From a virus, in the IMG/VR virus record IMGVR_UViG_3300045135_000343, positions 1 to 29,420 of that record: DNA of 29,420 bases. One strand, 5' to 3'. The notes under the pieces are model-generated. The model was not told the DNA's origin. It made no database searches and saw only the letters and a program-made list of their open reading frames with translations. This document shows, one piece after another, positions 20,163 through 29,235 of the stretch. Both the position numbers and the translations under genes were made by a program. Each line of letters begins with the position of its first letter. The first letter of the stretch is position 1.

Positions 20163-20168
20163 GTTACT

Positions 20169-20192
20169 GGGGGCTTCGGCCCCCGTTTCTTT
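20169..20192 (+). terminator. Rho-independent terminator after the capsid gene
   Basis: A perfect 6-bp GGGGGC/GCCCCC stem with a stable TTCG tetraloop is followed by G then TTTCTTT. It begins 7 bases after the capsid stop. It is the clearest terminator in the window. Confidence 0.93.
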
Positions 20193-22244: not shown

Positions 22245-22248
22245 AAAG

Positions 22249-22262
22249 CCCCGCCAAGGGCA
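22249..22262. terminator. Weak hairpin after the endolysin, possible degenerate terminator
   Basis: GCCC and GGGC form a 4-bp stem with a 6-base loop. AAAAA precedes it, giving a U-run only if read on the minus strand. No T-run follows on plus. It looks like a worn bidirectional terminator at the lysis/early boundary. Confidence 0.3.
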
Positions 22263-22306
22263 ATTAAAACCCTCCCAGCAAAAAAAACTTCAAAATAAAT
22301 CAACTT

Positions 22307-22340
22307 ATCTATTGCATATAGTCAATAGATGACTTAACAT
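22307..22340 (+). promoter_or_regulatory. Early promoter with palindromic operator over the -35 box
   Basis: TTGCAT (22312-22317), a 17-base spacer and TAACAT (22335-22340) form a sigma70-type promoter. The perfect inverted repeat ATCTATTG-N8-CAATAGAT (22307-22314 and 22323-22330) covers the -35 box and spacer. It is the only substantial gap between lysis and recombination genes, and a Cro/CI-like regulator is encoded 1.4 kb downstream on the same strand. Autoregulation by that protein is inference. Confidence 0.65.
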
Positions 22341-22370
22341 TTGTCTTGTGGAATGACGGAGGGAAACCAC

Positions 22371-22532
22371 ATGGACGAACTAAATCAAGTTGAATACTCA
22401 GAATGGCTGCGCTGGTGCGGAGCCGTTGACGCTGATCTATACACTAACCCGCTCGATGACAATCCAGACTATTTGGCTGGGTTTGCGGAGCGCTATGCTG
22501 AACTTGAATGCGAGGGACACAACAATGCATGA
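22371..22532 (+). CDS. Small acidic early protein, 53 aa
   Basis: ATG 22371 is chosen because GGAGGG at 22358-22363 lies 7 bases upstream; an in-frame TTG at 22341 falls in the promoter. The residues (YSEWLRWCGAVDADLYTNPL, then DYLAGFAERYAELE) suggest a short helical acidic protein. It is not recognised. It is the first gene behind the early promoter and its end overlaps the next gene by 8 bases. Confidence 0.6.
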   Translation: MDELNQVEYSEWLRWCGAVDADLYTNPLDDNPDYLAGFAERYAELECEGHNNA

Positions 22533-23891: not shown

Positions 23892-23897
23892 CGAAAA

Positions 23898-23930
23898 AAG
23901 CCCCTTGATCTGGAGGGAACCAAGGGGCTT
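23898..23930. terminator. Strong 10-bp hairpin; terminator only when read on minus
   Basis: AAGCCCCTTG and CAAGGGGCTT are perfect arms with a 13-base loop containing GGAGGG. An A-run precedes it, so the U-run lies on the minus transcript. On plus only TT then GCACT follows, so it may be an RNA-stability element or processing site on the 3' end of the regulator message. Confidence 0.55.
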
Positions 23931-24287
23931 GCACTGGAGGGAGTGCGTGAGGTATCATTGAAGTGCGAAAACAATGATGAATGTAGTTTACCACACCAGT
24001 TTTACAAACAACAATCATCTGTCGCCTAGTCGAGCCTAGTTAAATAGTGCTGTCTCATGGTGCAGCCGCTCAATAAAGCCAGAATCAATCTACGACCTTT
24101 AGAGGACGGGAATAAACAGCGTTTAGTGGTGACAAGTAATGGGCAGGTTTTGGCAGCCTGATCGGAGATACCCACCGATGAAATGTTTGCTGATGACTGT
24201 AGATTGAATGGACTAAGCTGGTATTATGGTTATGGATTAGGGTCACCCTCAGTCCTCTAAATGACAACTATTGTCTAAAGGAAAGCC
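23931..24287 (+). ncRNA. Candidate structured noncoding RNA or cis-element
   Basis: This 357-base stretch has no supported gene. Visible helices are GCACT/AGTGC (23931-23946), ATCATTG/CAATGAT (23954-23978), TAAAC/GTTTA (24113-24125), CAGGTT/AGCCTG with one G-U (24144-24160) and ATCGG/CCGAT (24161-24179). Two longer pairs cross: TCAATCTAC (24085-24093) with GTAGATTGA (24199-24207), and TTTAGAGGAC (24098-24107) with GTCCTCTAAA (24252-24261). GGTGAC (24128-24133) pairs with GTCACC (24242-24247) inside the second helix. Crossing pairs imply a pseudoknot. I recognise no known RNA class. It could be an RNA, a 5' leader of the gene at 24288, or a DNA site such as an origin. Confidence 0.45.
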
Positions 24288-24461
24288 ATGAATATTTACC
24301 AGAGACTAGCCGAAAGGATGCAGGATGAAGATACAGATTATGCGAGTATCTTAATCACTGATGACGGGGTAGAAATTTACACAAGTATAAGCTTTGATGA
24401 TTTAAAGGCTTTACTTATGGAAATAATAATGTTAGAAAAAGACAACTCAATAGTTCATTGA
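24288..24461 (+). CDS. Small hypothetical protein, 57 aa
   Basis: AAAGGAAAG at 24277-24285 precedes ATG 24288. The 57 residues (IYQRLAERMQDEDTDYASIL, then GVEIYTSISFDDLKALLMEI) form a short acidic alpha/beta protein with no known motif. It follows the structured gap and is the first gene of the second half of the early operon. A GACAA-CTA-TTGTC palindrome at 24263-24275 lies just upstream of its ribosome binding site. Confidence 0.6.
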   Translation: MNIYQRLAERMQDEDTDYASILITDDGVEIYTSISFDDLKALLMEIIMLEKDNSIVH

Positions 24462-28210: not shown

Positions 28211-29235
28211 TGAGATATGGATCAGTGTGCAGCGGTATCGAAGCCGCAACAGTAGCATGGCACTCACTTGGTTGGGTGCCTTCTTTTTTTTCTGAGATAG
28301 AAAAGTTCCCACGCGAAGTTCTGGCTCATCATTACCCAGATGTACCTTTGCATGGCGACTTCACAACAATTGGAGAAAATCAGTATGGATCAATTGACCT
28401 TCTTGTCGGAGGAACCCCCTGTCAATCCTTCAGTATCGCAGGACTCAGAAAAGGACTGGACGATGACCGTGGTAACTTGGCACTCGAATTCATTAAACTT
28501 GCTCAACGAGAGCGCCCACGATGGGTGGTCTGGGAGAACGTGCCCGGCGTCTTGTCTAGTAACGGAGGAAAAGACTTTGGCTCCTTCCTCGGGGCGCTGG
28601 GGGAAATCGGGTATGGGTTCGCCTACCGAGTTCTTGACGCTCAATACTTCGGAGTGGCCCAAAGACGCAGACGTGTGTTTGTTGTCGGATACCTTGGAGA
28701 CTGGAGACGTGCCGCAGCGGTTTTATTTGAGCGCGAAAGCCTGCGCGGGAATCCTGCGCCGAGCAGAGAAAAGGGGGAAAAGCCTGCCCCCACAGTTACA
28801 TCAGGCCCTCCATTCAGTCGCACAGGAAATGACCGAGTAGAGTGCGATGCTTACATACCAGAAGTAGCCAGCACGCTACAGACAACAGCAAACGATTACA
28901 GCCGAGCAGACGGCTTTAATGCAATCGCCACAGCATCTTCTACGGTGGCGTATGACATGAAGCAGCACCACAACCCACAGCCAACGGACACATTTTCGCT
29001 AACGGCTGGTAATTGCAACATGGTGCGTGGGGATACTCCACTTTTACAGATGAGCCTACAAGTACGCCGCCTCACCCCAACAGAATGCGAGCGCCTACAG
29101 GGATTCCCTGACGGCTACACCAACATCAAAGACAAGTGCCCAGACGGCCCTCGATACAAGGCACTGGGCAACTCAATGGCTGTCCCAGTGATGCGGTGGA
29201 TAGGCGAACGAATACAGGAGGTCGATAAACTATGA
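28210..29235 (+). CDS. DNA cytosine C5-methyltransferase
   Basis: Motif order is complete: I (CSGIEAATVAWH, residues 7-18), IV with the catalytic cysteine C71 in GGTPCQSFS, VI ENV (109-111), VIII QRRRRVFVVG (151-160), a variable target-recognition region about 175-280, IX (RRLTPTECERLQGFP) and X (YKALGNSMAVPVMRWIG). It transfers a methyl group from SAM to cytosine C5. With no restriction enzyme nearby it is an orphan enzyme, likely protecting phage DNA. The length, 341 residues, is typical. A second open frame overlaps residues about 59-210 in +1. Confidence 0.93.
   Translation: MRYGSVCSGIEAATVAWHSLGWVPSFFSEIEKFPREVLAHHYPDVPLHGDFTTIGENQYGSIDLLVGGTPCQSFSIAGLRKGLDDDRGNLALEFIKLAQRERPRWVVWENVPGVLSSNGGKDFGSFLGALGEIGYGFAYRVLDAQYFGVAQRRRRVFVVGYLGDWRRAAAVLFERESLRGNPAPSREKGEKPAPTVTSGPPFSRTGNDRVECDAYIPEVASTLQTTANDYSRADGFNAIATASSTVAYDMKQHHNPQPTDTFSLTAGNCNMVRGDTPLLQMSLQVRRLTPTECERLQGFPDGYTNIKDKCPDGPRYKALGNSMAVPVMRWIGERIQEVDKL
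28385..28840 (+). CDS. Nested ORF in the +1 frame of the methyltransferase, 151 aa
   Basis: ATG 28385, with GGAGA at 28372-28376 eight bases upstream, opens 151 codons entirely inside the methyltransferase gene. It starts MDQLTFLSEEPPVNPSVSQD and later has DGWSGRTCPASCLVTEE, PSSGRWGKSGMGSPTEFLTL, ETGDVPQRFYLSAKACAGIL and RRAEKRGKSLPPQL. I recall similar sequences annotated as separate phage or prophage proteins near C5 methyltransferases, which suggests a conserved dual-coding pair. It could also be a by-product of conserved methyltransferase motifs. Nothing in the sequence indicates its activity. Confidence 0.5.
   Translation: MDQLTFLSEEPPVNPSVSQDSEKDWTMTVVTWHSNSLNLLNESAHDGWSGRTCPASCLVTEEKTLAPSSGRWGKSGMGSPTEFLTLNTSEWPKDADVCLLSDTLETGDVPQRFYLSAKACAGILRRAEKRGKSLPPQLHQALHSVAQEMTE

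Follow-up and report, generated by a model that had tools for sequence, protein, structure and literature searches.

Two unrelated pseudoknotted RNA folds that can occupy the same place beside a predicted early promoter in environmental phages

Why would a phage leave several hundred nucleotides without a gene just ahead of its early genes, and what might they encode? We addressed this question in a window of 29,420 nt (the whole stretch of DNA analysed, from IMG/VR record IMGVR_UViG_3300045135_000343), all recognisable genes of which lie on the + strand with protein relatives that suggest phages of marine Gammaproteobacteria, among others. The original prediction had placed a gene-free region at 23931-24287, and measurement bears this out with a non-coding stretch of 396 nt (23892-24287). 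It also stated that almost no other gap exceeds 100 bases; the others above that length measure 145, 118 and 399 nt, the longest (1025-1423) containing small basic ORFs. The bounds it gave need refining, since the RNA described below does lie inside them (~23963-24275) but the part up to ~23963 is a separate hairpin and promoter segment. Elsewhere in the window, a second intergenic gap (22245-22389, 5' of the Erf/SSB/HTH genes) combines the palindrome TCTATTG-N8-CAATAGA (22308-22329) with a terminator-like hairpin on the - strand (22248-22261). At 20168-20185, immediately 3' of the major head protein gene, the hairpin TGGGGGCTTCGGCCCCCG with TTTCTTT after it has the look of a strong + terminator, and a further + terminator-like hairpin, with TTCTTTTTTT, lies at 28259-28290 within the beginning of the DNA methyltransferase gene.

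Both of the crossing helices that had been predicted, of 9 and 10 bp, are present and perfectly Watson-Crick (helices a and b, Table 1). When 23931-24287 was shuffled 1000 times with dinucleotides preserved, 42 shuffles contained a helix of 10 bp or more and 4 a crossing pair with helices no shorter than 9 and 10 bp, while along the contig just 1 of 243 sliding windows held a crossing pair of such length. The original appeal to chance is therefore right that crossing helices are rare, but the significance obtainable from a single sequence is only modest, so that proof has to be comparative. Total folding energy was ordinary on both strands (MFE z of -0.23 on + and -1.01 on -), such that folding energy alone would overlook the structure. 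P4-type immunity (C4/CI) RNAs are short antisense products of processing that pair with matching parts of a leader. One candidate complementary pair considered in that comparison (24096-24103/24274-24281) is absent from loci L008, L014 and L045.

Table 1. Features of the leader locus and its surroundings, in window coordinates
Feature	Position	Strand	Details
Gene order, first part		+	portal, scaffold, major head protein, tail fibre/spike, lysozyme, Erf, SSB, HTH, gap
Gene order after gap		+	winged-HTH protein, rep-like protein, NinB, exonuclease, NinG, DNA methyltransferase
Cro/C1-type HTH protein, 64 aa	23697-23891	+	upstream neighbour of gap
GC-rich hairpin, A-run before it on +	23898-23930	-	reads as intrinsic terminator on -, just upstream of -35 box
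Predicted sigma70-type promoter	23929-23958	+	-35 TTGCAC 23929-23934, 18-nt spacer, -10 TATCAT 23953-23958
RNA 5' domain	23963-24025	+	GCGA 23965-23968 / TCGC 24022-24025, enclosing P0; from folds of ~30 loci
Hairpin P0	23976-23980 / 24015-24019	+	GATGA / TCATC
T1 core RNA	24026-24275	+	reaches ribosome-binding site of first early gene
Hairpin H1	24026-24029 / 24036-24039	+	
Hairpin H2	24049-24052 / 24063-24066	+	
T1 pseudoknot	24085-24261	+	helix a crossing helix b; span of four strands
Helix a, 5' strand	24085-24093	+	TCAATCTAC; partner 24199-24207
Helix b, 5' strand	24098-24107	+	TTTAGAGGAC; partner 24252-24261; crosses helix a
Hairpin H3	24144-24147 / 24157-24160	+	
Hairpin H4	24161-24165 / 24175-24179	+	
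Helix a, 3' strand	24199-24207	+	GTAGATTGA; partner 24085-24093
T1 local hairpins	24239-24249 and 24263-24275	+	
Helix b, 3' strand	24252-24261	+	GTCCTCTAAA; partner 24098-24107
Shine-Dalgarno-like AAAGGA and first early-operon gene	24277-24461	+	57 aa, start 24288

Relatives were collected by scans with the Erf protein (15 loci sharing the locus) and the rep-like protein (80 loci, overlapping the Erf set in part). Most have an ORF-free stretch of ~280-470 nt between the HTH gene and the early genes, and it holds one of two cores, either that of the window, T1 (~250 nt, in a whole leader RNA of ~310 bases, 23963-24275), or a second one, T2. The T1 RNAs of L008, L014 and L045 are 90-99% identical (98.8% for L008), against only 61-79% for nearby genes of L008 and L014. 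Helices a and b are nearly invariant in this first set of four close relatives. Diverged T1 RNAs (L140/L142, L264/L284, L267/L276/L309, L278/L286 and L307) were recovered with 16- and 17-mers taken from outside helices a and b; because exact words were the means of search, T1 RNAs more diverged still will have been missed. A scan with the 17-mer CCTGATCGGAGATACCC returned the known T1 loci and chance matches, nothing more.

Helix a is rebuilt in every diverged T1, where the window's pair gives way to TACGACAAC/GTTGTTGTA, TCCGACAAC/GTTGTTGGA, TCAATTCC/GGGATTGA, GTTAAACGCC/GGCGTTTAAC or TAACCACC/GGTGGTTA. The inner six pairs of helix b read GAGGAC/GTCCTC, GAGGGC/GCCCTC or GATGGC/GCCATC, and with double-sided change in only 2 of its 10 pairs it is the weaker of the two helices. 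In the A7 alignment of 10 distinct T1 rows, representing about six independent lineages, 96.2% of cells pair and both sides change in 17 of 33 pairs, counts that kinship among the sequences inflates; covariation is 0.477, compared with 0.161 in shuffled controls (0/500) and no more than 0.111 in slid ones. Effect size and slid controls leave little doubt that the T1 pseudoknot is real, and the predicted pseudoknot thus survives comparison with homologues, compensatory changes in both helices being found among the 10 distinct sequences. T1 counts of 13 G.U against 1 A.C place the RNA on the + strand. The window has H1, H2, the crossing helices a and b, H4 and the conserved unpaired stretches, and its membership of T1 stands on pair counts because it is among the training rows of model R2. 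A coding explanation of T1 was ruled out by indels among the window, L008 and L014 that break the frame, and weak R2 matches in L308, L270, L290 and L304 were rejected as lying inside long ORFs.

Comparison likewise located the predicted promoter, which a simple promoter scan of the window did not report. Two hexamers separated by 17-18 nt recur at the equivalent place in nearly all relatives, upstream of both cores, with -35 variants TTTAC[AT], TTGCAC and TTGTCC and -10 variants TATCAT, TATACT, TATCTT and TAAGGT or a variant; a strict hexamer rule missed them in L101, L108, L111, L120 and L128 and chose other sites in L011, L045 and L099. In short-form T2 loci the -10 box ends ~7-8 nt before helix P1, such that the core itself would form the 5' end of the RNA. 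The 5' domain is common to T1 and T2 loci. In long forms, the window among them, the initial GTGCGA pairs with the TCGC immediately 5' of the core, around a P0 stem whose sequence varies among loci with its pairing retained; closure is less clear in B-type loci. Taken together with covariation, these positions establish that 23963-24275 encodes a structured, pseudoknotted + strand RNA running from just past the predicted promoter to the ribosome-binding site, and its position relative to the conserved promoter would place it at the head of the early transcript, as a 5' leader.

The terminator-like hairpin upstream is kept, with differing stem sequences, in most relatives that have a long 5' domain, and occupies the equivalent position in L002, L008, L014, L015, L067, L103 and others. 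In L092, L103 and L110 it is followed on + by CTTTAC, the short T-tract running into the -35 box. It adjoins the + promoter, yet the window shows no genes on the - strand. Across the promoter lie two overlapping palindromic sites (23929-23982), GCAC..GTGC around -35 and ATCATTG..CAATGAT around -10/+1, and they vary among phages yet remain symmetric (ATCTTGTA/TACAAGAT in L067, CTCTAT/ATAGAG in L092). They are possible operators for the neighbouring HTH protein, itself a possible regulator of the leader promoter.

The second core, T2, is an unrelated pseudoknotted fold of ~190 nt with strong covariation, whose 52 distinct sequences form alpha, beta and gamma groups. The A3 alignment of beta T2 (27 rows) supports eight helices, among them the pseudoknot that the P5 loop forms with a segment 3' of P1, with 97.2% paired cells, double changes in 22 of 38 pairs and covariation of 0.478 against 0.182 shuffled (0/500); alpha T2 (A4 alignment) is similar. 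One pseudoknot pair varies within beta, CGGTT/AACCG becoming CGGTA/TACCG in L086, L115 and L121, and inspection suggests equivalents in gamma (TTGACT/AAGTCA) and alpha (GAGC/GCTC). Here too the counts, 55 G.U against 2 A.C, place the fold on the + strand. Covariance model R1, with a training set of 27 distant T2 RNAs, all beta, recovers untrained alpha-T2 and gamma-T2 loci at E of 6e-10 or better and, with E allowed to reach 10, finds no match to the window, L008, L014, L044 or L045, these E-values being rough. One T2 18-mer matches at least 120 IMG/VR stretches, some of them parts of contigs already in the set, and R1 confirms 80 of the 80 that were fetched among the matches listed. In most T2 RNAs (A3, A4) the ACCCU of the P4 loop could pair with a conserved 3' AGGGU, a possible second pseudoknot; in the L086 group this loop is altered and the 3' end is not. 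Distant T2 loci (L072, L080, L086, L099, L115, L121 and others) carry a conserved hairpin, GGCGAGGCTTGCCGAGCC, just 5' of the first start codon and followed by ATAGGAG and that codon, with a matched change in L115 (GGTGAGGCTTGCCGAACC); it resembles an RNA element in its own right, linked to translation.

How the two cores relate is clearest from L014 (T1) and L015 (T2), which are 95.7% identical in the HTH gene, 85.2% from promoter to P0 and 90.5% in the next gene, with cores that align no better than shuffled sequence (61.0 vs 63.4%). Such nearly identical flanks mark T1 and T2 as natural substitutes. A second, B-type promoter (TTGTCC..TATCTT) carries T2 in L017, L019, L024, L042 and others and T1 in L264 and L267, and in L278 and L307, which belong to another lineage, T1 precedes genes for helicase and primase. 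Relatives differ in the gene that opens the early operon, the leader being followed by 57-63 aa proteins, an HNH endonuclease or a 165-aa gene before helicase/primase. Shared flanks, both promoter types and another lineage together argue that T1 and T2 replace each other at a fixed place, irrespective of the first gene. An HNH endonuclease gene adjoins the RNA in L267 (1043-1558, - strand), and a long insertion by the promoter hairpin of L004 (4200-4850) may hold a similar - strand gene. Homing could be what moves the T1 and T2 cassettes.

The suggestion that the RNA is unlike any known class agrees with our searches, as no Rfam 15 family matched the window, five T1/T2, ten T2 or four T1 loci at gathering threshold; the sole match among the loci searched was an unrelated tRNA elsewhere in L307, and permissive Rfam searches gave chance-level matches only. 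ARAGORN found no tRNA or tmRNA. A hammerhead ribozyme, brought to mind by the CUGAUGA of T1, was rejected, given CUGAUUA in L278, L286 and L307, no nearby GAAA in L014 and no Rfam match. Blastn found neither core in GenBank phages and plasmids, although for DNA this diverged absence is unproven, and a GTDB genome scan for T2 gave three chance matches lacking the remainder of T2. Among cultured protein relatives, T1 is absent from Pseudoalteromonas Pq0 and HS1, Vibrio 1.122/1.275 and Octadecabacter DB2, and T2 from Pq0, HS1 and Vibrio 1.122/1.275. A literature search found no description of T1 or T2. Both may figure, unnamed, in a large catalogue of structured phage RNAs compiled by computation.

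We think it rather probable, judging from structure, strand, position, exchange of cores and sequence constraint, that the RNA serves the entire early transcript as a cis-acting leader, whatever its first gene. To our knowledge, few structured RNAs are known at phage early promoters, the well-studied case that acts on polymerase as nascent RNA being put. In HK022, putL and putR are RNA elements downstream of early promoters (putL just past PL) that act as nascent RNA, each of ~70 nt with two stem-loops, suppressing pausing and termination via the beta' zinc-binding domain of RNA polymerase (Nat Commun 2022, PMC9378689). T1 likewise lies 3' of a predicted phage early promoter and before replication genes; it differs in having ~250 nt and a covarying pseudoknot (T2 has ~190 nt), which is about three times the length of put, and neither core has a recognisable sequence, fold or Rfam link to it. 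By this analogy, the nascent leader would fold on leaving RNA polymerase and modify the elongation complex for anti-pausing or antitermination, such that one promoter could drive the long operon. This put-like action is our leading mechanism, advanced tentatively; a single-copy leader at the extreme 5' end, with any first gene and a replaceable fold, would suit an operon-wide switch. It is weakened by the scarcity of intrinsic terminators (first 3 kb), which leaves antitermination with no obvious target. Strong terminator-like hairpins downstream of T2 (24 loci, 65 kb) are equally rare on the two strands, 5 and 5, and a stricter finder reported no + terminator-like hairpin in the window's early genes.

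Other structured RNAs resemble T1 and T2 in part. GOLLD is known from phages, and GOLLD, ROOL and OLE are much larger than T1 and T2. All three are large, highly structured ornate RNAs (PMC12286853). T1 and T2 share that general character with them but are 5' leaders tied to an early promoter and have no Rfam match. The T4 gene 32 leader also has a pseudoknot within a phage mRNA leader; it is short and serves autoregulation of one gene, whereas the first gene after T1 or T2 varies. The phi29 packaging RNA is phage-encoded, structured and of similar size, but T1 and T2 sit at an early promoter, in a genome of another kind, and have no Rfam match.

The main rival to a cis-acting leader is a trans-acting RNA, in which the structured 5' part of the early transcript, cut off or still attached, would have its target in the machinery of host or phage (RNA polymerase, the ribosome, a nuclease or the packaging motor, for example); we regard it as possible though somewhat doubtful. 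Many unpaired stretches of T1 are invariant (the loop GTCGAGC, GCTCAAKAAAGCCAGA, AATAAACAG and GAGATACCC), suggesting a conserved partner, with the reservation that GCTCAAKAAAGCCAGA also served as a search key and owes part of its invariance to that selection. Independence from the first gene would fit as well, and the A/T-rich linker after the RNA in distant T2 loci is a plausible cutting site. However, no terminator of its own is seen, the RNA is always first in the operon, and T1 and alpha-T2 abut the next gene's ribosome-binding site.

That last position would suit a leader for translation or mRNA stability, its fold shielding the 5' end or governing the ribosome-binding site that follows, since T1 and alpha-T2 lie immediately 5' of the Shine-Dalgarno sequence and start codon and, by inspection, the P4 loop could pair with the 3' AGGGU in most T2. 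We consider this unlikely given that first genes vary, that distant T2 loci have no start codon close after AAAGGG, and that the changed P4 loop of the L086 group is unmatched at the 3' end. A replication element, a structured transcript priming or activating DNA replication (cf. ColE1 RNA II), is improbable. Replication and recombination genes do follow within 0.3-0.9 kb, helicase and primase among them in L307, but early operons usually begin near such genes anyhow, no repeats or iterons were found nearby, and GC-skew does not turn at the leader. Of the roles first proposed (a noncoding RNA, a cis-acting leader or a replication element), the pseudoknotted leader is thus backed by covariation and promoter position, and the replication element has no specific support. 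Hardly credible is a - strand transcript terminating at hairpin 23898-23930, for which a strong terminator-like hairpin with TTTTTT on -, retained in relatives, can be cited, against the G.U over A.C asymmetry that places the fold on + in both families and a promoter and 5' domain that suit the + strand.

Returning to the cis-acting leader, we put forward with some reserve the view that T1 and T2, as unrelated pseudoknotted RNAs not described before, may perform one and the same task at the 5' end of phage early transcripts and be exchanged by recombination, an all-RNA analogue of N/nut versus put that would be widespread in environmental phages. That one locus accepts either fold, in several lineages of compact phages, amounts to a natural experiment in which the effect common to T1 and T2 is the function, and covariation-backed models make both RNAs searchable and directly testable.
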